Source: Sporocytophaga sp. (lineage in GTDB: Bacteria; Bacteroidota; Bacteroidia; Cytophagales; Cytophagaceae). From it: a stretch of DNA of 64,000 nt. Under the pieces are notes generated by a model, which had not been told where the DNA came from, did no database searches, and saw nothing but the letters and a program-made list of their open reading frames with translations. Within the stretch, counting starts at the first letter, position 1. Each line of letters opens with the position of its first letter. The DNA lies in NCBI RefSeq assembly GCF_017745095.1, contig NZ_JAGHZZ010000004.1, positions 1-64,000 of the forward strand, read 5' to 3'. Both the position numbers and the translations under genes were made by a program. Of this stretch, positions 16,312 to 28,491 are shown piece by piece.

Positions 16312-19300
16312 CTATTGAAGAATCAACTTTTTAATCGTTGTTCCGCTTTCATGATCAATCTTCACAAAATACGCTCCGCCCGGTAAGCCTTGCAGACTTA
16401 AGTGAAGATTATTCTCCTCAGAAGTTTTTCTGAAAACAGCCTCTCCAAGGGTATTGGTAATTGTAATGTCAACCTTTCCTTCAAGTGCTGTTTTTATATA
16501 AACGTCACCACTTGTCGGATTAGGATACACTTCAGCCTGAAGCGTAGTGTTAGTACTTTGAGCTGATGTGGTAATCATCACTACGCTCTCTGACTTCGGA
16601 GACAGGATAATCGGAGTGCCATTGGAATTTATTGCCTTGTTAGATGTAAAGCCTATTGATAAATATTGTGCGTTAGGCTTTAATCTCATTTTAAGGTCTG
16701 CGATTTTTCCATAACCGGTCTTTGATGTCTTGTCAAATCTTACAAGTGATCCGTCAATTCGTCCGATAGATTCAAATGCTTTGTATACACCCATTGTTTG
16801 CGATCCAATGGTACCTAGCCAGTTCCCTTTGAATGATAAGGACGCTGAATTAGGCTCCACAGCATCTGCATTAAATTCTAGATTGAAAGCAATTCCATAA
16901 AGGCTATTTACCGGTGCGGAACTCTTACCTGCCCAAATCTCCGCTTCTATGATTTCTCCAGGTACAGGTGGTTGTGTGAAGATAAGGAATAGGTCTGCTT
17001 CTGCAGCTATTCTTAAGTTACTTGACTTAGGATGAGTTAGCCCGTAGTTTTTGATAATCGCTAAGGTATCCTGGAAGTAAACGCTACCATTACCATCGCA
17101 ATCGCTGAACTTCATGTCAAGGCCATTGCTTTGTAATTTATTCCAGTTCAATGCATCGAAAGCTTGCCACTCAGTTGATATGGAGGTTCTAGGTATACCT
17201 GTTTCTCCAAAATTCAAACCAATAGGAAGCATGTCATAAACGTCCGCAACTCCATTATTGTCAACATCACCAGGCCATACATTAGTTGCTGGTGAAATTT
17301 TGAAAATTTCACTGATGTAATAGACTTTTGGGTCTAGTGGATCACTGGCTTTCAGCAAGACATTCGTCGATGTTATTTGTGGTACTTTCCAATAATAGTA
17401 GAATGTGTTATAGTACCTTGTCGCATTCTCTGTGATAAACACCCAAGAGGTTCCATTATTTGTCGAATATTCTAGCTTTACGTAATCTGAGCTGAGATTC
17501 GCTGCTCTTCCTCCAACATAAACTTCAGCAGACTGAGTGAGATCGTCTCCGAGCTTCGGAGCTTCGATTTTAATAGATGGTACAGTTTTGATGTCGAACT
17601 GATTATCACTGACATCGCTTACGCAGCTCTCCGCATCCATGATCTTTAAGACTCCTGATAAGGTTGGGGTGTTGGGAACCTGCCAACTATATGAACCTGA
17701 GTTTGCTATGGATGTGATAAATTCCCAGTCAAGCCCTCCATAGGTCGAGTACATTAAATTGACATTTTTGACTGTACCTGTAGTAGTCCATTTAATTTCA
17801 TGTTCACTATAAGTATCCCAAACTTCTCCTCCATTAGGTGTAGTAAGCTTCAGAGCTGATGTAGTATTTATATTCTGAATCTCAAATACAGCATCACTTA
17901 CATCATATATCAAAGGATCTTTTGAGTCGGCAACCTTAATTAGAACCTTTGTAGAACTTAGTTCCGGCAATGCCCAGTTTTCATATCCGTCTTTATAGGT
18001 TGGAGTTGAATATATTCTTGTCCATGTTAAACCATTATCAGTTGAATAATATAGGTATACAGAGCTTACTCCTTTATTCTCCCAACGAATAACATTATTG
18101 ACGCATGCTGTCAACTTCTCTCTTCCGTTAGGGAACTTAACTGTAATCTCTGGTTTTGAAATAGTAAATGGACTTTCATTCATGCCATAAACCGCCGCAT
18201 TGGAAGCAGAGCTTACTTTGATAAACACTTTTGAAGATGAAATGTATGGTACGGTCCAGGCAAAATAGCTTTCACTTGTAGATCCGAATTTGGTCCAGGT
18301 TTTTGTTGAGTCTGCAGAGTAATACAGATTTACAGCCTGACTTGCAAGGTTTCCAGTTGACCAATATAGATACTGAGTGGTTCCTGCATCCCAGTTCTCA
18401 TTGCCTTCAGGTTTTATTGTATAAATATAAGGCACTGCCTCAATTTTAAATGGATTGCTTTGAGCGAGAGCACAGCTTGCTTTGTCTGATATGCGGAAGA
18501 GTGCATTAACAGAAGGATCATTTGGTACTCTCCATTTATATGGGCCATATGAAAATATATCTTCAATAAGTTTCCAGCTTGTACCTCCATCTGTTGAATA
18601 TTCAAGTAAAGCATTGTAAACATTACCTGTATTTTCCCAACTGATTGTCTTAAGACTACCCGTCTGAGTGTCAGTGAATGTTGTTGTTAACTTTAACGTA
18701 CGTACGGGATTATTAATGCTGAACATTACATCACCAATGCCAAAAGCAGTTTCATCTCCTGCATCTGCAATTTTTACAAAACATTTAGTTGAATTTTCCT
18801 GAGGTACTGTCCATTCATATTGATTTGAGCTTACATTTTTAACGATATTTTTCCATGTAGAACCGCTGTCAGTTGAATAATATATGTTTACTGCACTGCT
18901 TTGGGAGCTCCAGTAAATGTTGGTTCTCATACAAGCACTTAATTCTTTTCCATTACTGAAACTTATATAAGAGAAAGTTGGCTTAACAATCTTGAATATA
19001 TACTGTGATGTCGCGAAGATCGAAGGATTTCCAGCATCAGCGACCCTAATTACACAGTTATCAGTATAAGTATAAGGAACTTTCCAGTAAATTGTGGAAC
19101 CCGTATAGTTTGATTCTATAAGGATCCATGATCTTCCTCCGTCGGTTGAGTAATGAACATTTACTTTTCCATTGGTCAGGTTGCCGCTATTCCACTCTAT
19201 TTCATGGTAAGTTCCTGCAGTCCATTGATGTACATCATCAGGAGTTTTCACTGAAATGAATGGAGTTGCTTTAATTGTGAATGCCGCATCACTTTCATCT

Positions 19301-22300
19301 ATTGCACAGCTTCCTTTATCACTGATTCTTACTTTTGCTGTTCCAGGGTTATTATAAACTGTCCATGTTTTTGATCCTGTATTGGCCACTTGCTCACTGT
19401 AAAAGAGATCTCCGTAAGAACTATTGTTTATAGAAACTTCCAGCTTAACAAACTTAACTTCTTCAGGTGCAATCCAGGTAATGTTATGGTTTTCGCCGGT
19501 TCCCCACGTTTCTCCACCGTTAGGCGAAGTAAGTTTGATAGTTGGCCTTGTATTATTGATTGTAAATGGCGCGTCGCTTATATCAAATTGTGTCGCATCA
19601 TTAGGGTCAACGATTTTTACCAGGCATTTTGAAGAACTGATATCCGGTACCATCCAGCTTGAACTGTAATTTCCTATTAGTCCACCACGGAAGCTTGTCC
19701 AGCTTGTTCCTCCGTCTGTTGAATAATAGAGATTACCTGTACTATTCCCGGCCCAGGTGACAGTAGTAAATGTACATGACTTTAATGTCTCTCCTCCATT
19801 TGGAGAAAGTATGGTAAATGCCGGTCTTATCATGGTGAAGACGGTATCGTTCATGTCATAAATAGCAGGGTTGTTGTAATCGCTGACCTTTACATAACAA
19901 TTTACTGATCCTGAATTTGGTAACGTCCATGAATATGCACCATCATTGGCTTCCTTCTCAGCTATAACTTTCCATGTTCTTGCAGAGTCTATTGAGTATT
20001 CAATCTTTACAAAAGAAGTACCCATATTCGTCGAACCCCAGAAAATCGACTTGACTGTATTGCCGTACCAGCTCTCTCCTCCATTTGGTCTTGATACTCT
20101 TATTTTTGAATATTCAAGGGTAAAAGCAGCGTTGCTTACATCAGAAACCGAAGCATTAGCGGCATCACTGATTCTTATAAGTCCGGATAAAGATTCGGTT
20201 GAAGGAGTTTGCCAGTTGTAGCTTTCTGTGTTTTTTATTGTATCAGAAATAAGTGTCCATGAAGTTCCGGAGTTTAAAGAATATTCAAGTTTTATTTTCC
20301 CGGTTAAAAATGCGGCATCCCAGTTGATTGTAGTCATACTGCCAGCAATTATTTTCTCTCCTCCATTAGGAGAAATTAGACTAACTGAAGCTGTACCTGT
20401 GATATTAAATGAAGCATTACTTATGTCTGAGTTACAGATATTATCTACATCTGATATTTGTACCAAAGTTTTTGAGGAAGGAACCTTGGATGGTAATGTC
20501 CAGTTATAGGATCCGGAATTGTTAACTAATCTAGCAATGTATGTCCAGGTAGTTCCATTATCTGATGAATATTTTATGTTAACTGATTTTACTGAAGCAT
20601 CGCTTGTCCATGTGATTGTTTTCTGGCTTCCGTTAGCCCAGCTTTCTCCGCCATCAGGACTTGTAATCTTAATTGTCGGTACATAATTGTTTGTGATAGT
20701 AAAGGCGCTGTTGCTGATATCAAACATTGTAGTATCAGACTCGGCGGAAATTTTAAAGAGACATTTGTCTGAATTAATTGGAGGGACCGTCCAAGGATAT
20801 GAAATAATACCGCTAAGTCTGTCAAGTGTAGTAACCCTTGACCAGGATTTTCCATTGTCGCTTGAGAAATATAAAACAACAGCATTAAACAATGTATTTG
20901 TCCAGGAGATAGTTGATGTAGCACAGGACGAAAGTATTTCTCCTCCGTTATGAGAAAGTAATCTTAATTCTGCTGGTGCTATGGTAAACGTATTGCTACT
21001 CATTACTGTCAATGATGGATCGGAGGCTGAAGTAACCCTTATCCTGCATTGGCTGGAAGGGGTATTAGGTATCAACCAGAGATATTCCATCATAGAAGGC
21101 TGCTGAGTTGCAATACTTTTCCATGTTAGTCCGTTGTCAGTTGTATAGTCAATATTAACAGACTGCATTGGAGCATTAATCAGATTCCAAACAATATAAG
21201 TTGTAGTTCCGATTCCTAGTATTTGCCCTCCATTTGGACTTGTCAGTGTAATAAGCGGAATGGCTTCAATGGAGAATGCTGCATTGCTTTGATCGGTAGC
21301 ACAACCTGCATTATCACTTACCTGAATCAAAGCTTGTGTAGAAGAGATATTATTGGGTACGGTCCAGTTATAGGAGCCATTGTTAGGCGCACTGTTTGTA
21401 ATAGAAATCCAGGAAGTCCCATTGTTGATGGAATAACTGATTCTTACAGTGCTTACAGTGCCTGTGTTTGTCCAGGTAATATTCTTCTGGCTATTGCCTT
21501 TAAGGGTTTCGCCTCCGTTAGGACTTGTAAGTGTAATAGTTGCGGAATTATTGCTAATTGAGAATGCTTGTTCAGATATATCACTAAGTGATGAATTAGA
21601 ATAATCCTGTACTCTGATCTTATTTTGTGCTGACGCGGTTGACGGCACTTTCCAAGTATAAGTATTATAAGTGTAATTTGTGACTCCACTTGCTATTGTG
21701 CTCCAGCTGACCCCATTATCTGTGGAATGGCTTATAGTTACCTTATTGGATGTCTGTTCGCTTGTCCATTCTATTTTCTGCTCAGAACATGCAGCCCAGT
21801 TTTCTCCTCCATTTGGGGATGTTAAAGTGATATTTGGATTAGATATAGAAAACGCTGCATTGTTGATGTCAAATGTAGCAGGATCACCAGTGTCGTAAAT
21901 TCTGATAAAGCATTTGTCAGATTTTTCATTTGGTACATACCAGTCGAAGGTGCCGCCGAAATTGTATCCTCCTGTAATATTTTTCCAAGTCTTCATGCTG
22001 TCAACAGAGTATTCAAGAGTCAGATTGATAGTCTTAAGATTTCCGCTTGACCAGTATAAAGATTTATAATTTTTAGAATAGATTTTTTCGTATGTATTCA
22101 ATGAATTGATCGTGATAAACGGCATCGGTATTACATTGAATAATGCATCACTCTGATCAGTTACACAACTGTTAGCATTATCTGAAACTCTTACAAGATA
22201 TTTTGATGTCACATCTCCCGGGAGCCTCCAGTCATAGGATCCTGTATTGGTAATTCCACTTGCAAGATTATACCAGGTGTTTCCTGCATCAGATGAATAA

Positions 22301-25300
22301 CTTATGTTAACTTTATCACTAACATTTACTCCCGTCCAGGTAATGAGTTTTTGTTTCCCTGTTCCCCAACTTTCTCCACCATTAGGGCTGGTAATTGTAA
22401 TTGAGGAAGATCCGGAGCTTTCTATTGTGAACTTAGCATTGCTAGCATCTGAAATAGCTTTATTATAATAATCAACAACTTTCAACAGACAATTGGAAGA
22501 AGCATTTCCTACAACTTTCCATGAATAGGTATTATTGCCATTGGTTGTAGGGACAGCGCTAGCTATCAAATTCCATGATGTGCCTCCGTCAATAGAATAG
22601 TAAAGATTAGAATAGCTCGAAATGCCAAGACTGGACCAGGTTATTGTAGCGTTATTGCACCCGCTTAGTTTTTCTCCTCCATTTGGGTAAATTAATGTAA
22701 GAGCCGAGTTGATGTTAAACGCAAAATTGCTTTGGTCGAATACGCATGAATTACTATTGTCATTTATTCTCACAAGTGCATTGTTGCTTGTCGTTGCTGG
22801 AAGTGTCCAGTTGTAGGAGCCGGAGTTCTTAATATTATACGCAATGTTGTTCCAGCTGGTTCCTCCGTCTATTGAATATTTCAGATCCACATTTGAGATG
22901 CTGCCAGTGCTTTCCCACAGAATTGTTTTGGCAGATCCAGTTGGCCAGGTTTCTCCTCCAATAGGACTTAGTACTTCAAATGATTTCAAACCATTATTGA
23001 CTGTAAACGGGGTTGTGTTTTCTGAAGAAATATTTGATACAGTGCTTACAACTTTTATGCGGCAAGACTTAGAAATAGTCGCAGGAATTGTCCATTGATA
23101 AGTGTTCTTGCCGTTTACAGTTGATAAGTCAGAAGCAATTGACTTCCAGGTGGAGCCATTGTCTGTCGAATAAAGTAAATTGACATATCCTGTATTGCCT
23201 TTACTAAACCAGCTGATCGTCTGATAGGTGCATCCCAGCCAACTTTCTCCGCCTGCAGGTGCTGTTAAAGTGAGCACTGGCTTAACAATGCTGAATTTCG
23301 AACTGATACCATAAGCGCTTCCATAACTCGCTCTGATAAAGCAGTTGTGAGAAATAATATCAGGTACTTTATAATTCTCAGAAGGATCAAAATAGGCAGA
23401 TGAAATTCTCTTCCAGGTTCTTAACGAGTCTGTAGAGAGCTCTACAATATAGTTTGGAATATCTGTTGATCTGCTTATAGTTGCTCTGAAAGTGGAATAA
23501 CTATATAATGTATCTCCAGTTTTCGGTGCTGATACAATTAACGTCGGAATGCTTTGTATCGCAAATGATGCCTCACTGATATCTGAAATACATGCATTGG
23601 AAGCATCTGCAACAGAAACTTTGTAAGACGAAGAGGTTAAAGTAGGGAGATACCATGTGTATTTCCCTGTATTTGAGGTACTGTTGGCAATCGCCGTCCA
23701 GGTTGTTCCTCCATCAGACGAATATTTGATGTTGACATAACTTACTGTTCCAGCTGTTGTCCAGAAAATGGTTTTGTCAGTTCCTCCCTTGTAAATTTCG
23801 CCACCATTAGGAGTAACTAATGTTAACCCTGGAGAAGTTGGATTGGTGATTGTAAATTGAGCATCTGAAATGTCAAATAAGTTTGGATCTGATCCACTTG
23901 TTACTTTAATAAGACATTTGGATGAACTTGTTGCAGGTAGTGTCCAGTTATAGGAATTGGCATATACAGAAGAGGCAATGGTATTCCATGTAGCTCCTGC
24001 GTCTAATGAATAAAACAGATTATAATAATAAGGCCCTACATTTGTCCACTTAATCTGATTTACAGTGCATCCACTAAGTGTTTCTCCTCCGTTAGGGGAT
24101 GTTATCGTTATAGTTTGTCTGATGATGGTAAATACACTGTCAGATATTGCCAATTTTGAAGGATTTGAAAAATCTTTAACTCTAACTTTTACTTTAGCAG
24201 ATCCTACATCAGGTATTTTCCAATAATAACTTTCGTTGTTAGGTTCCTTTGCTGAGATGGCTGTCCAGGTTGACCCAGAGTCTAATGAATAATCTAATGT
24301 TACAAACTCTGAGAGTCCAAAAGAACTCCAGTTGATATAACCATTATCGCGTGAATAATATGAATCTCCTGCTCTTGGTGATGTAATACTTATATTGGCA
24401 GTTTCGCTCACACGGAATTTGGCATCACTGACATCGGATACACATCCGGAATTATCGGAAAGCTTTATGAGATAATCAGAGGAGGCTTTGTTTGGTATAG
24501 TCCACTTGAATTTACCGGTATTAGTTATAGAAAAGGAGGTAGCATTGTACCAATTTAGTCCTGCATCGTAAGAGTATGATACATAAACAGAAGGCACACT
24601 ACCTGTTGTTGCCCACTTGACTTCCGACTGGCCTGAAGTGCCAAAGTTTTCTCCTCCGTTTGGAGTCAGAACTTTTAAGGTACCTCCGGTATACTGAATT
24701 GAGAAAGGTGTTGCAGATGTTTCGGAAATTGTTGGGTTGGCTTTACTTACAAGTCTGATCAGACACTGTGTAGAGTTTATTCCTTCGGGGTTCCAATATC
24801 TGGTATTATTTCCTCCATAACTTTTAACACCATCTGCAATTGTTTTCCACGTTGTTCCATTGTCAGAAGAGAAAAGGATATTAAAGTCATTAAGTCCTTT
24901 GCTTGACCAGGCGATTGACCTGGATACACATCCGGGAACAACTTCCCCACCTGCAGGAAAGGTTAAAGTTGTGTGCTTGCTTATGGAGAGAGGAGTGAAG
25001 TTTATTCCAGAGAAAGTTGGATTTCCTGCTTCACTAACTCTGAAGAAGCAGTTTGTTAAATTAACATTGGGAGAAGTGAAACCATATGCACCGTCATTTG
25101 CTTCATTAGTAGCAGCTGTGGTCCAGGTTTTCATCGAGTCTGATGAAAATTCAATATTTACAAGTGCTTTACTGTCAAGTTTGTTGCTATACCATTTTAC
25201 ATTTCTGTTGGATTCATCCCAAGTGACGTTGATAAAAGGATTTTCTTTTATAGTGAAATTTTTGTCACTGTAGTCAACAACACAAGGTTGAGAATAGTCA

Positions 25301-28300
25301 TTAATTGCGATCCTGTAATTATCTGCAGCAGTCGTTGGCAATGTCCAAAGGTATGAACCAGTATTAGGAATTCCTTGTGCAAGACTTGTCCAGTAAATGG
25401 CGTTTGTAGTATAGACCTGCAATGTGACGTTGCTGACAGCTCCTTTAGTCGTCCATGTGATTTTTTTTGCGCCTCCGGTATTAAGAACTTCGTTGTCGGT
25501 TGGACTTGTTATTGTTAATGCATTGCCTGTATAGTTGACTGAAAAGTTAGCGCTGCTATCTTTTAGAAAACCGTTTGTGTCTGTGAGTTTTATTCTGAAT
25601 TGATTTGACTGAATTCCAGGAACAGTCCATTGAAATGAATTTTCCGAAGCCGATGAAGACGCGCTGGTGTTCCCAGGTACCCAGGAGATGCCACCATCTA
25701 TTGAATATTCAATTTTTACATATCCACTGGATGATGGGCCATTCCATTTTATTGTCTGATTAGTACATCCGGTTAACGTTTCTCCACCAACAGGATATGT
25801 TAGTTTAAGGTTAGATTTTAAAATTGTAAATGCAGCATCATTAATATCGAAAATATCCGGGTTAGACACCATGCTTACCTTTATAAATGCTTTGGTCGAT
25901 GACTCTGCCGGGATATTCCAGGAATAATAAGAGCTTTTACCTTTAATAATGTCTATCAACTTCCATGTACGCGCAGAGTCAAGGGAATACTCAACTTTTA
26001 CCAGAGCAGAATCAATATTGTTTGCAGCCCAGTTTATATTGACTTTGTTTCCTGACTTGTATGTTTGTCCGTCCATATAGGAATAGACAGAAAGGGATGG
26101 TACAGTGACTACAGAAAATGGCTTGTCTGTGATGTCAGTAGTGCAGGTATTTGAATAGTCTGTAATGCTTATGAGATAGCCTGTCGATGGAGTATTGGGT
26201 ATTTGCCATTTGTAGCTTCCAGTATTCTGATTATAGGATGTTAATGTTGTCCAAGTGTTACCTGCATCACTAGAATATTTGATATTCACTCCTGCAATTT
26301 TTCCTGAGGTTGTCCAGGTAATATTTGCATTGCTGTTTGTACCTATAACTTCTCCGTTATTGGGATATGTTATTTTTATAAAGGCAGTATCTTTTTTGAT
26401 TATTGAAAATGCCTTATCACATATATCTTCATTAGTAGGATTGGCTGCATCTTTAATTTTTATCAGGCAGTTTTCTATTGCTAAGCCTGGAGCTGTCCAT
26501 TGTGCAGTATTGTTTCCTTCTTTATTCGAGAAAGAGCTTGTTCCGATCTGATTCCAGCTTGTTCCCATATCGGGAGAATAGAAGAGGTTTACATATGATG
26601 AGCTTCCTTTACTTGTCCATGTGATATTGCTCGCAGTGCAACCACTAAAAGATTCGCCTCCTGCTGGAGAGGTGATCGTAAGGGAAGGTTTTCCTATTGT
26701 GAAAAATTCGTCGGAAATGTCTTCGGTATAACCATCACCGCTGCCAGGAGTACTTATTTTTATAAGGCATTTTGTAGAATATATATTAGGAGGGCTCCAA
26801 TTATACATACCATAATTGAATTCAAATGAGCTTATTGAAGTCCAGGTAGAGCCGCCATCGATGGAATAGCTGATGCTAACATAACTCGAAGATATGTTGC
26901 CATTAGTCCATTGTATATACTTGAAATTTGAAGGGAATACCGTGTCTTTGGAGGTATTGGGAAAATCAATCTTGAAGAAAGGAGCAGGGACAACATTGAA
27001 ATAGTTGTCGCTCATGTCTACGATGCACTCATTTTGTGCATCTGTAACTTTAACTAATCCTTTTGATGTGGCAGTTGAAGGAACAGTCCAAAGGTATTTT
27101 CCTGTATTTGGAACAGTGGTGGCAGAAGTCCAGCTTTTACCTTCATCTCCGGAGTAATATATGTTTACCTTGTCAGAAAGTCCTGAGCTGGTCCAGGTAA
27201 GATTAATTCTTTGTCCTGTTTTAAGGCTGTCCCCTCCGTTGGGAGAAGTTAGTTTTATATTAGAAGATGAATTTTTAGTTATAGTGAAGTTATTGCTTGT
27301 AGCAGTAATGGTTGGTGTGTAGACGTCCGATATTTTAACAAGATATTTATTAGAGCTTACTTCAGGAGTTGTCCATTCAAAGGTGTTGTTTCCTATAAAA
27401 TTCAAAACAGAATTTCCTGCTTGATTCCATGTGTTGCCATTGTCTGAAGAGAAATATATATTGACATAAGGAGAAGTTCCCTGACTAATCCATTTGATTG
27501 ATTTTTTACTGCATCCAGAAAGTGTTTCTCCACTAGCCGGCTGGGAAATAGTGATGGAAGGATTGGCAATTGAAAATACAGCATTGCTTATATCAATAGG
27601 AGTGCCGTCCGGGTAACCGGAGACCTTTACAAGACATTTATCAGACACCGTATTCGGAATGATCCAGTCAAAAACTCCATAATTGGATTCAGCTGTAGTA
27701 ATTTTCTTCCATGTGGCCCCTGCATCGGTGGAATAATGCAGTGATACAAAAGCAGGACTGCTGAAGCTGCGTTCCCAGAATATCTTTGCTGTGGAGTTAG
27801 TATAAAAGGTTTCTCCTCCATTGGGTCTTGTTATTGAGTAATTAGCCTGCTCCTGAATAGTAAATGCAGAGTCGCATTCTGAAAATATACAGTTATTGGT
27901 ATAATCGCTTATTCTTACAAGGCAATTAGAGCTTATATTATTATATGGTAATAGCCAACGATAGGTACCTGTGTTTTCGGCAGCTGTGTCAATATTTACC
28001 CAGTTTGCACCTCTGTCAGGTGAATATCTTATTCTGACTTTTGAAATAGAACCTACTTTATTCCATTTAATCAATTGTTCACTTGTTGTACCCCATTTCT
28101 CGCCACCTATCGGACTTAAGAGTTGAAGTGATGAACTGGTTGTACTTGTAATTGAAAAGGGAACGTCACTGATATCAAAATCAGTTGGTGTGAAATAGTC
28201 TTCAATTTTAATAAGACATTTGGTCGAATTCACCTGCGGCAGGTTCCATGAATAGGTTTGAGGATAGTAGTTAACCGACCTTGCGACAGGTTTCCATATT

Positions 28301-28491
28301 TTACCTCCATCAAGAGAGTAGTAAATGTTTATTCTGCTTACTGAGAAGGAGACTGTCCAGGTAATCTCCTGAACGGTACAGCCGAGATACGAACCACCTG
28401 AGTTAGGCGAGGTGACAGTGATTGCCGCTTTTGTATCGATGCTCAAAGACAATAATAAGACACACAACAATGCGTAAAAAACTTTCTTCAT
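16312..28491 (-). CDS. 4059-residue T9SS cargo of Kre9/KNH-like Ig repeats with dockerin- and cohesin-like domains
   Basis: Signal peptide MKKVFYALLCVLLLSLSIDT, then about 39 repeats of 85-100 residues (residues about 23-3736). Each opens with a hydrophobic strand plus a SPNGGE-like turn, then ITW-type strand, NIYYS-x-D-x-G-x-TW, and closes Y-x-W-x-x-P plus a C- or D-rich strand; this is the Kre9/KNH (Ser-Thr-rich membrane-anchored) Ig pattern. The units come in a recurring order of three types, A, B and C. C-terminal tail of about 323 residues: dockerin-like calcium loops (GDVDNNGVADVYD and SDCDGNGSVYFQD, about 3740-3820), a cohesin-like beta domain (about 3828-3975, EIIEAEIWAGK ... FNADAVEP), then a T9SS type A sorting domain (EVYPNPTSGDVYIK, about 3985-4059). 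Likely a surface or secreted adhesin/scaffold. Function unproven. Confidence 0.9.
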   Translation of the reverse strand: MKKVFYALLCVLLLSLSIDTKAAITVTSPNSGGSYLGCTVQEITWTVSFSVSRINIYYSLDGGKIWKPVARSVNYYPQTYSWNLPQVNSTKCLIKIEDYFTPTDFDISDVPFSITSTTSSSLQLLSPIGGEKWGTTSEQLIKWNKVGSISKVRIRYSPDRGANWVNIDTAAENTGTYRWLLPYNNISSNCLVRISDYTNNCIFSECDSAFTIQEQANYSITRPNGGETFYTNSTAKIFWERSFSSPAFVSLHYSTDAGATWKKITTAESNYGVFDWIIPNTVSDKCLVKVSGYPDGTPIDISNAVFSIANPSITISQPASGETLSGCSKKSIKWISQGTSPYVNIYFSSDNGNTWNQAGNSVLNFIGNNTFEWTTPEVSSNKYLVKISDVYTPTITATSNNFTITKNSSSNIKLTSPNGGDSLKTGQRINLTWTSSGLSDKVNIYYSGDEGKSWTSATTVPNTGKYLWTVPSTATSKGLVKVTDAQNECIVDMSDNYFNVVPAPFFKIDFPNTSKDTVFPSNFKYIQWTNGNISSSYVSISYSIDGGSTWTSISSFEFNYGMYNWSPPNIYSTKCLIKISTPGSGDGYTEDISDEFFTIGKPSLTITSPAGGESFSGCTASNITWTSKGSSSYVNLFYSPDMGTSWNQIGTSSFSNKEGNNTAQWTAPGLAIENCLIKIKDAANPTNEDICDKAFSIIKKDTAFIKITYPNNGEVIGTNSNANITWTTSGKIAGVNIKYSSDAGNTWTTLTSYNQNTGSYKWQIPNTPSTGYLISITDYSNTCTTDITDKPFSVVTVPSLSVYSYMDGQTYKSGNKVNINWAANNIDSALVKVEYSLDSARTWKLIDIIKGKSSYYSWNIPAESSTKAFIKVSMVSNPDIFDINDAAFTILKSNLKLTYPVGGETLTGCTNQTIKWNGPSSSGYVKIEYSIDGGISWVPGNTSASSSASENSFQWTVPGIQSNQFRIKLTDTNGFLKDSSANFSVNYTGNALTITSPTDNEVLNTGGAKKITWTTKGAVSNVTLQVYTTNAIYWTSLAQGIPNTGSYLWTLPTTAADNYRIAINDYSQPCVVDYSDKNFTIKENPFINVTWDESNRNVKWYSNKLDSKALVNIEFSSDSMKTWTTAATNEANDGAYGFTSPNVNLTNCFFRVSEAGNPTFSGINFTPLSISKHTTLTFPAGGEVVPGCVSRSIAWSSKGLNDFNILFSSDNGTTWKTIADGVKSYGGNNTRYWNPEGINSTQCLIRLVSKANPTISETSATPFSIQYTGGTLKVLTPNGGENFGTSGQSEVKWATTGSVPSVYVSYSYDAGLNWYNATSFSITNTGKFKWTIPNKASSDYLIKLSDNSGCVSDVSDAKFRVSETANISITSPRAGDSYYSRDNGYINWSSFGLSEFVTLDYSLDSGSTWTAISAKEPNNESYYWKIPDVGSAKVKVRVKDFSNPSKLAISDSVFTIIRQTITITSPNGGETLSGCTVNQIKWTNVGPYYYNLFYSLDAGATWNTIASSVYANSYNWTLPATSSSKCLIKVTSGSDPNLFDISDAQFTITNPTSPGLTLVTPNGGEIYKGGTDKTIFWTTAGTVSYVNIKYSSDGGTTWTAIANSTSNTGKYTWYLPTLTSSSYKVSVADASNACISDISEASFAIQSIPTLIVSAPKTGDTLYSYSTFRATISRSTDIPNYIVELSTDSLRTWKRISSAYFDPSENYKVPDIISHNCFIRASYGSAYGISSKFSIVKPVLTLTAPAGGESWLGCTYQTISWFSKGNTGYVNLLYSTDNGSTWKSIASDLSTVNGKNTYQWTIPATISKSCRIKVVSTVSNISSENTTPFTVNNGLKSFEVLSPIGGETWPTGSAKTILWESTGSISNVDLKYSIDGGTSWNNIAYNIKNSGSYNWTLPATTSNNALVRINDNSNSCVFDQSNFAFNINSALTLIYPNGGEKLSGCNNATITWSSLGISSYSNLYYSIDGGTSWNLIASAVPTTNGNNTYSWKVVGNASSNCLLKVVDYYNKAISDASNAKFTIESSGSSSITITSPNGGESWGTGKQKLITWTGVNVSDKVNISYSSDAGNTWYNLASGITNTGSYDWRLPGDVTSKYLVRVSDNANSCVTDQSDALFNVIPMPFITINSLNTYEKIYSKNYKSLYWSSGNLKTINLTLEYSVDSMKTWKNITGGYNFGGTFDWYVPNEKSDKCFIRIYDTGDPATFDINNAAFSISNPNITLTSPNGGENWAACSEQKIEWTSEQTSNKVTISHSTDNGVSWSTIASGVTNYTYNTYTWKVPSTASAQNKIRVQDYSNSSLSDISEQAFSISNNSATITLTSPNGGETLKGNSQKNITWTNTGTVSTVRISYSINNGTSWISITNSAPNNGSYNWTVPNNISSTQALIQVSDNAGCATDQSNAAFSIEAIPLITLTSPNGGQILGIGTTTYIVWNLINAPMQSVNIDYTTDNGLTWKSIATQQPSMMEYLWLIPNTPSSQCRIRVTSASDPSLTVMSSNTFTIAPAELRLLSHNGGEILSSCATSTISWTNTLFNAVVLYFSSDNGKSWSRVTTLDRLSGIISYPWTVPPINSDKCLFKISAESDTTMFDISNSAFTITNNYVPTIKITSPDGGESWANGSQKTITWTSDASVKSVNIKYSSDNGTTWTYIARLVNNSGSYNWTLPSKVPSSKTLVQISDVDNICNSDISNASFNITGTASVSLISPNGGEKIIAGSMTTINWDAAFLTGKIKLEYSLNSGTSWTLISDTIKNTESYNWQTPSTESLSGLIRISDAANASVSDVSNAAFTLEYSKIRVSRPNGGESWYGNTVKSIFWGSTNMGTSFVKIEYSIDSARTWKVIAEKEANDGAYSWTLPNSGSVNCYVKVSDYNNPAIYDMNDTVFTMIRPAFTILSPNGGETLKSCTFTTVTWAGNSTGNLYYSTDGGTSWTSFRGGLIGNYSSSWMVPDISSSKCLVKIVDPNDATQFDISDAPFTINNTRPTIKLTSPNGGETWGTGENHNITWIAPEEVKFVKLEVSINNSSYGDLFYSEQVANTGSKTWTVYNNPGTAKVRISDKGSCAIDESDAAFTIKATPFISVKTPDDVHQWTAGTYHEIEWNSGNLTNGKVNVHYSTDGGRSWILIESNYTGSTIYWKVPYTYTDNCVIRVADAGNPSIFATSQYIFKIVKPTFSYISFSNGKELSACMRTNIYWSSQSSAVNIYYSTDSGSTWKNIVKNVSSNQYEWTVPQENSTKCFVKIADAGDETAFGIGDVMFSINNPVRTLKLTTTFTDTQTGSLKTISWENTGNVYNALLEYSTDGGTSWKLIEDIFSYGPYKWRVPNDPSVNALFRISDKASCALAQSNPFKIEAVPYIYTIKPEGNENWDAGTTQYLYWSTGNLASQAVNLYYSADSTKTWTKFGSTSESYFAWTVPYISSSKVFIKVSSASNAAVYGMNESPFTISKPEITVKFPNGREKLTACVNNVIRWENKGVSSVYLYYSTDNGLTWTRIYSTPTYKDGYENWALPELSSTKVLIKVADSKDPLIYDVSDAVFEIQNINTTSALKLTTPNGGEVWDTYSEHEIKWTTTGTVKNVNLMYSTYGGLDWEFITSIANSGSYSWQVPNTPTLSGVLKIMDAESCVSDVSDNQFDIKTVPSIKIEAPKLGDDLTQSAEVYVGGRAANLSSDYVKLEYSTNNGTSWVFITENATRYYNTFYYYWKVPQITSTNVLLKASDPLDPKVYYISEIFKISPATNVWPGDVDNNGVADVYDMLPIGLNFGETGIPRTSISTEWQAFDALNWNKLQSNGLDMKFSDCDGNGSVYFQDTLAIIKNYGLTHPKSSNLRIAAEADLFLIFTQPPVPGEIIEAEIWAGKSSAPVNSLYGIAFNLEFNADAVEPNSASLSFKGNWLGTIGSQTMGVYKAFESIGRIDGSLVRFDKTSKTGYGKIADLKMRLKPNAQYLSIGFTSNKAINSNGTPIILSPKSESVVMITTSAQSTNTTLQAEVYPNPTSGDVYIKTALEGKVDITITNTLGEAVFRKTSEENNLHLSLQGLPGGAYFVKIDHESGTTIKKLILQ
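19828..20397 (-). repeat. extra C-type unit (repeats 29 and 30 of the giant protein)
   Basis: Two consecutive units that both lack the A-type leading Cys and the B-type N-x-C-x-x-D-x-SD ending: one begins VSLISPNGGEKIIAGSMTT, the next IRVSRPNGGESWYGNTVK. Everywhere else a single C unit follows each B. This is the place where the three-type order has one unit too many. Confidence 0.6.
22410..22980 (-). repeat. missing C-type unit (junction of repeats 20 and 21)
   Basis: The B unit ending NSCVFDQSN is followed directly by an A unit that begins LTLIYPNGGEKLSGC; no C unit lies between. The boundary is near 22690-22730. The three-type order is short by one unit here, balancing the extra one at 19828-20397, so each type still totals 13. 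Confidence 0.6.

Follow-up and report, generated by a model that had tools for sequence, protein, structure and literature searches.

In secreted proteins of Bacteroidota built from tandem Kre9/KNH-like units, a cysteine (Cys) placed early in one unit is almost always accompanied by a late Cys or a BC-loop Cys in the unit that follows. The rule is seen in a giant gene of Sporocytophaga sp., which lies in the stretch of 64,000 nucleotides analysed here (the window), and it is not private to this gene, as it also holds in a paralog from the same genome and in proteins of 16 family codes. Within the window gene, the units belong to three classes, A, B and C, and the invariant element is the A-B pair. 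As judged from the sequence, the product is probably a long Ig-like stalk exported by the T9SS, in which A-B joints would be stapled by inter-domain disulfides and C units would act as spacers.

The gene occupies positions 16312-28491 on the minus strand of a 6.63-Mb genome assembled in 64 contigs and forms a single open frame of 4059 amino acids (0 N, 0 internal stops). Its product starts with a hydrophobic, signal-peptide-like N-terminus (amino acids 1-23, recognized by eye), continues with 39 tandem units (amino acids 24-3734) and a 253-amino-acid non-repeat region, and ends in a T9SS type A tail. The protein as a whole scores 49.8 bits against Kre9_KNH (PF10342; curated cut-off, 24.6), with only two stretches exceeding the cut-off individually, while the type A sorting domain is recognized by both TIGR04183 (45.7 bits against 23, E 4.6e-12) and PF18962 (49.2 bits against 27, E 6.7e-13). 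An earlier note on this DNA, which had described a giant T9SS protein of about 39 Kre9/KNH-like units, is borne out in these respects. The features of the gene are listed below; units were delimited by a unit profile cut and alignment unless stated otherwise.

16312..28491, minus strand: gene of the 4059-aa T9SS protein, single open frame (PF10342, PF18962, TIGR04183)
28423..28491, minus strand: signal-peptide-like N-terminus, aa 1-23 (by eye)
27841..28422, minus strand: A-B pair 1 (units 1-2)
27556..27840, minus strand: C unit 3
26977..27555, minus strand: A-B pair 2 (units 4-5)
26683..26976, minus strand: C unit 6
26095..26682, minus strand: A-B pair 3 (units 7-8)
25810..26094, minus strand: C unit 9
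25258..25809, minus strand: A-B pair 4 (units 10-11; end of unit 11 uncertain by ~10 aa)
24973..25257, minus strand: C unit 12 (start uncertain by ~10 aa; profile cut)
24394..24972, minus strand: A-B pair 5 (units 13-14)
24112..24393, minus strand: C unit 15
23542..24111, minus strand: A-B pair 6 (units 16-17)
23275..23541, minus strand: C unit 18 (longest branch; profile cut and tree)
22702..23274, minus strand: A-B pair 7 (units 19-20), without C after it
22117..22701, minus strand: A-B pair 8 (units 21-22)
21832..22116, minus strand: C unit 23
21253..21831, minus strand: A-B pair 9 (units 24-25)
20968..21252, minus strand: C unit 26
20386..20967, minus strand: A-B pair 10 (units 27-28)
20104..20385, minus strand: C unit 29, first of a doubled C
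19819..20103, minus strand: C unit 30, second of a doubled C
19258..19818, minus strand: A-B pair 11 (units 31-32)
18976..19257, minus strand: C unit 33
18427..18975, minus strand: A-B pair 12 (units 34-35)
18148..18426, minus strand: C unit 36
17575..18147, minus strand: A-B pair 13 (units 37-38)
17290..17574, minus strand: C unit 39
16531..17289, minus strand: non-repeat region, aa 3735-3987 (dockerin-/cohesin-like by eye only)
16315..16530, minus strand: T9SS type A sorting domain, aa 3988-4059 (PF18962, TIGR04183)

The region upstream of the sorting tail (aa 3735-3987) resembles, by eye only, a dockerin followed by a cohesin; a Pfam search of this region lent no support, as the matches were the tail itself and two sub-threshold hits over the tail. 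Neighboring genes in the window encode a CotH protein and a GH26-CBM35 protein, of which the former has a T9SS tail and the latter a sub-threshold one, as well as a pectate lyase that contains Ig-like domains, a setting that would fit a polysaccharide-degrading lifestyle.

The order of the profile-cut, aligned units is ABC six times, AB, ABC three times, C, and ABC three times, giving 13 units of each class. The early Cys column is occupied in all 13 A units, as the earlier note had stated, and in none of the other 26. The late Cys is likewise present in all 13 B units and in none of the other 26; 12 of the B residues share a single column, and that of unit 35 is displaced by an alignment gap. 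The motifs that had been ascribed to every B unit were overstated: by eye, a strict N-x-C or G-C is found in nine of 13 (the misfits read QPC, GSC, ASC and ESC), and a strict D-x-S-D in six, or in 11 if relaxed to D-x-[ST]-[DNE]. C units do lack the early and late Cys, but the K-C-x-I Cys that they were said to usually keep is not a C mark, since its column is filled in 9/13 A, one B and 8/13 C units. Nor is the period of three fixed, because units 20 and 21 have no C unit between them and units 29 and 30 are both C; only the A-B pair is unbroken, A directly preceding B in 13 of 13 cases. The three-class repeat originally observed is thus confirmed in part.

Similarity peaks at every third unit and not between neighbors: mean identity is 0.340 at lag 3, against 0.290 at lag 1 and 0.299 at lag 2. 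With Cys columns masked, the mean score at lags 3, 6, 9 and 12 is 132.1, compared with 119.7 (sd 2.8) when the unit order is shuffled (0/5000 shuffles as high), and the within-class score, with all Cys columns masked, exceeds the between-class score by 30.8 (shuffle sd 1.9; 0/2000 as high). For 35 of the 39 units, the nearest neighbor is a unit of the same class. Five units, four of which are C, are not placed in their own class by mean score, and class C holds together least, identity among C units (0.287) being no higher than that between A and C (0.286). Linkers also have class-specific lengths, averaging 6.5 aa for A-B, 4.6 for B-C and 3.9 for C-A; across positions 17290-28422, they range over 4-8 residues (A-B), 5 (B-C, where a single 0 is a boundary error) and 3-4 (C-A).

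It might be argued that this is an ordinary divergent tandem Ig-like array whose three classes stem only from recent triplet duplication. Such duplication is visible in a second giant of the same genome (L009; G000 C44, 175 kb onward, plus strand), a frame of 4222 codons with four A-B-C triplets, after which come five units poor in Cys and a long run of other repeats (six hits of 40 bits or less in L009 were dropped before counts). In its successive triplets, A units (from unit 2) are 61-91% identical, B units (from unit 3) 63-78% and C units (from unit 4) 59-72%; units three apart are thus 59-91% identical, and duplication by triplets, as suggested in the earlier note, has therefore occurred in the family. 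The window triplets, on the other hand, are old, since mean within-class identity is 29-38% (best pair, 52%) and the array is conserved unit for unit in G002, whose 39 units agree with it in their early and late Cys and in both order breaks; only core and stray Cys differ. Moreover, the A and B classes are common to different genes. A merely ordinary array is thus disfavored and hardly credible as an explanation. The ortholog in the Sporocytophaga MAG (L035:4468-16667) is broken into three overlapping frames at two places, which may reflect an assembly error or be real. A third giant (L010:47-12244, 4066 codons) has other repeat domains and, far downstream of them, a KNH-like unit.

When 57 units from the window and L009 are placed in one tree, A units lie on one side of a branch (80/95), as do B units (93/95), whereas C units do not and need two changes; the earlier note had proposed clades as a check on the classes, and in this tree A and B, but not C, are each set off in this way. 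If Cys and late-motif columns are removed, none of the three is single, the changes numbering 2 for A, 3 for B and 4 for C, against approximately 14.8 with shuffling; thus, the classes are still clustered. In a quick tree of 82 units from nine proteins, built without Cys columns, 26 of 27 C units and two A units lie beyond a supported branch (98), with A and B partly mixed on its other side.

The Cys rule was assessed by scoring an early Cys in the A'-B turn and, as its partner, a late (F-G) or BC-loop Cys. A first set comprised 17 frames, taken from the window, the paralog and 13 other loci. Among its 239 adjacent pairs, 72 combine an early Cys in unit n with a partner Cys (late or BC-loop) in unit n+1, 167 have neither, and none is discordant, whereas all other lags tried (-3 to 3) gave discordant pairs. 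Searches with the A-B pair gave matches in 40 of 390 genomes at the level of the order (at 1e-15), in 47 of 395 at that of the class (1e-22) and in 68 of 395 at that of the phylum (1e-22); these tallies record the presence of a match and not copy number, approximately eight candidates per genome being scored (13 in the C-unit search). PF10342 itself lacks the sensitivity needed for sampling this family, since it reached only 26 of 247 class genomes at 1e-4. A wider set was obtained by adding 40 hand-picked stretches, giving 1018 units with the first set included; its 938 adjacent pairs divide into 190 joint, 0 early-only, 12 partner-only and 736 neither, or 117, 0, 12 and 558, respectively, without the first set. 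A later set comprised 20 stretches, to which the model was applied in frozen form; its 149 pairs divide into 34 joint, two early-only, three partner-only and 110 neither. Seventeen of these stretches came from a search with the C unit only, which matched 125 of 395 class genomes at 1e-12; 15 of the 17 and the other three also stand in the class A-B list, so that, with 18 of 20 shared, the later set is not an unbiased sample, and some of its proteins are near earlier ones (G689 with 93% and G692 with 83% mean unit identity). In 55 genomes that match the C unit, all of them at 1e-8, and not the A-B pair, the listed matches are scattered single units with no array among them.

When the sets are pooled, 226 early Cys are followed by a further unit, and 224 of them have a partner there, a late Cys in 188 cases and a BC-loop Cys in 36, although these counts are inflated by the shared ancestry of A-B pairs and by sampling that favors pairs with both Cys, nearly all arrays having come via a profile in which both are conserved. 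The 32 further early Cys that stand at an array end or face a gap lie outside the 226, and units of 25 bits or less, proteins with fewer than three units and neighbors more than 30 aa apart were dropped before counting. Shuffling of unit order within proteins (1000 times) yields a mean of 82.7 and a maximum of 104 joint pairs in the wider set, against 190 observed; the corresponding values are 17.3 and 27 against 34 in the later set, and 4.4 and 10 against 13 in the window alone. A core Cys used as a control (model position 68, present in 440 of 1018 units) shows a loose lag-1 clustering with a phi of 0.32, compared with 0.96 and 0.91 for the rule. The A-B pairs of five relatives in alignment A4 were picked for having both Cys, and the invariance of these residues is therefore no test; alignment A3 (overlapping five-unit windows, 792 columns) was misaligned by shared segments and left out of all results.

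The two unpartnered early Cys both belong to family f48: that of G456 unit 4 lies nearer the strand, and that of G415b unit 11 stands in a unit that carries a BC-loop Cys itself. Conversely, 15 partner-type Cys follow a unit without an early Cys (12 in the wider and three in the later set). Grouped by eye, they comprise two BC-loop Cys (G856, G775) whose preceding unit has a Cys immediately ahead of the F strand, two (G417) whose preceding unit is split by an inserted domain and has the early Cys in its first half, five (G576, G731, G451, G417, G692a) in one kind of unit that has the Cys marks e and b together, and six that are mixed or unexplained. A pairing of b with d within a unit was considered for some of the exceptions and rejected, as G692a unit 7 has b without d. 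The counts include the G130 frame, whose Cys pattern is irregular, while the first unit of G044, lost to the score cut, does have the early Cys expected from the rule.

Other arrays vary the arrangement. In units 3-19 of G029 (L025), five of six C units have an early Cys of their own and the next A unit has a BC-loop Cys, which yields C-A-B chains; in the remaining case, the early Cys of unit 18 and the BC-loop Cys of unit 19 are absent together. Longer super-repeats, with chains of putatively stapled units, are found at L052, L053 and L051 (G486, G518, G651), while the arrays at L060 and L061 (G856, G775), of 49 and 44 units, respectively, are poor in Cys. Because the arrays of G1020 (48 units) and G982 (47 units) are without any early Cys, a staple would be an option and not a property of the unit. 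At array ends (L036-L045 and others), 15 of 20 end or gap early Cys of the wider set directly precede, by eye, a different two-Cys domain, and the staple code may continue into such following Ig-like domains.

Coupling of this kind could also have been inherited: A and B may each have had its Cys when the pair was founded, with both persisting in the absence of a bond. The grouping of A and B across paralogs agrees with this, as does the nine-protein tree, which sets A and B apart from C. Such co-inheritance is nevertheless unlikely, given that both Cys are kept in 13 of 13 window pairs despite the low identity within classes, that the partner occupies a different site (the BC loop) in 36 of 224 cases, that both Cys are missing together at units 18 and 19 of G029, and that the BC-loop Cys of G856 and G775 are preceded, by eye, by a Cys before the F strand instead.

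A predicted model of units 4-6 (A-B-C; 23 alignment rows) has Ig-like strands with a pLDDT of 91.8 and a pTM of 0.68. Units 4 and 5 contain one Cys apiece: the early Cys (C15) is located in the turn that connects strands 11-13 and 17-24, and the late Cys (C177) lies between strands 163-172 and 179-181. In an Ig fold, the former turn would be at the lower pole of A and the latter loop at the upper pole of B, where they would face each other across the joint. The Cys at the far pole of A could thus form an inter-domain disulfide with that at the near pole of the next B. The idea that, according to the models, no joint but A-B is rigid was dropped: a B-C-A control model reached a pTM of 0.76, the opposite of what had been expected, so that A-B is not singled out as rigid. 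A Foldseek search against the PDB returned, among the best 50 rows, tandem Ig/FN3 chains with query-normalized TM-scores of 0.2-0.3, which indicates a fold class at most, and a PDB sequence search with A4 returned 24 sequences, the named ones being mostly sialidases and Reelin matched over short stretches.

Two facing Cys at a joint could instead be part of a metal or ligand site at the A-B interface. Models of three disulfide catalyst families (VKOR, Thioredoxin_4 and DsbB) found no match in this genome at E 0.001, whereas they match in 3, 9 and 6 of 14 control genomes, respectively, which also favors a site of this kind. Such a pair, however, has just two invariant Cys and no invariant His, and the Asp residues invariant over the 13 window pairs are D172 and D38, the latter in the S-x-D-x-G-x-x-W motif, which we take to be Asp-box-like; a metal or ligand site is thus very improbable. 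The phylum is able to make disulfides, since they are documented in the gliding apparatus of Flavobacterium, and inter-molecular ones exist in the gliding and T9SS apparatus of Bacteroidota (PMC12635249). This precedent would also suit disulfides that link neighboring molecules into a sheet or bundle. The lag of +1 in one chain, with sites at the facing poles of adjacent units, speaks against this, because no fixed lag would be needed between chains, and we likewise attach very little probability to inter-molecular cross-links. Disulfides across neighboring units, as the earlier note had envisaged, therefore have the covariation of Cys in adjacent units in their favor, and the bond itself is what we infer from it. 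With such bonds, the 39 units would form a long surface or secreted stalk with a putative adhesive or scaffolding role, its conserved building block being the A-B pair and its unstapled spacer a C unit, which is usually single but is missing once and doubled once in this array. The other proteins would realize other stapling patterns, with either two of three joints free or stapled joints in chains.

Several known systems share some of these traits. Other Kre9/KNH-like (PF10342) Ig arrays of Bacteroidota have the same unit type, the Asp-box-like motif and a tandem arrangement in a T9SS protein; the array described here differs in its three ordered classes and its inter-unit Cys rule, whereas G1020 and G982 are without early Cys. 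In Siglecs, an inter-domain disulfide joins the adjacent Ig domains 1 and 2, at one joint of an animal receptor; the window protein would carry a putative code repeated along a bacterial fiber. Titin is likewise a giant Ig/FN3 chain with a higher-order sequence of domain types; the super-repeat here consists of three units with Cys pairs. SasG and the Periscope proteins are also long bacterial surface stalks, although SasG is reported to be without covalent cross-links. SprB, the gliding adhesin of Flavobacterium johnsoniae, is also a very long T9SS surface protein (approximately 200 nm), but it is a Type B substrate (PMC12635249), whereas the 4059-aa protein has a type A tail. Among the papers listed by a literature search that covered few subscription titles, none describes a three-class order with inter-unit Cys, which is weak evidence of novelty.

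Somewhat more speculatively, a disulfide staple code in Bacteroidota T9SS stalks might set which joints are locked, and hence stiffness, via Cys in units n and n+1; this is a tentative proposal that we hold to be a little less than evenly balanced. Such a code would comprise the A-B-spacer, chained C-A-B and longer super-repeat families, and the stalk would measure approximately 100-150 nm by our estimate. In any case, the rule is a simple and testable guide to the architecture of large secreted proteins that have received little study. Should the bonds form, the bacteria would be making covalently stapled extracellular fibers in a genome in which three disulfide catalyst families gave no match, which raises the question of the oxidant. 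If the staple code is true, stiff joints would be predictable from sequence.
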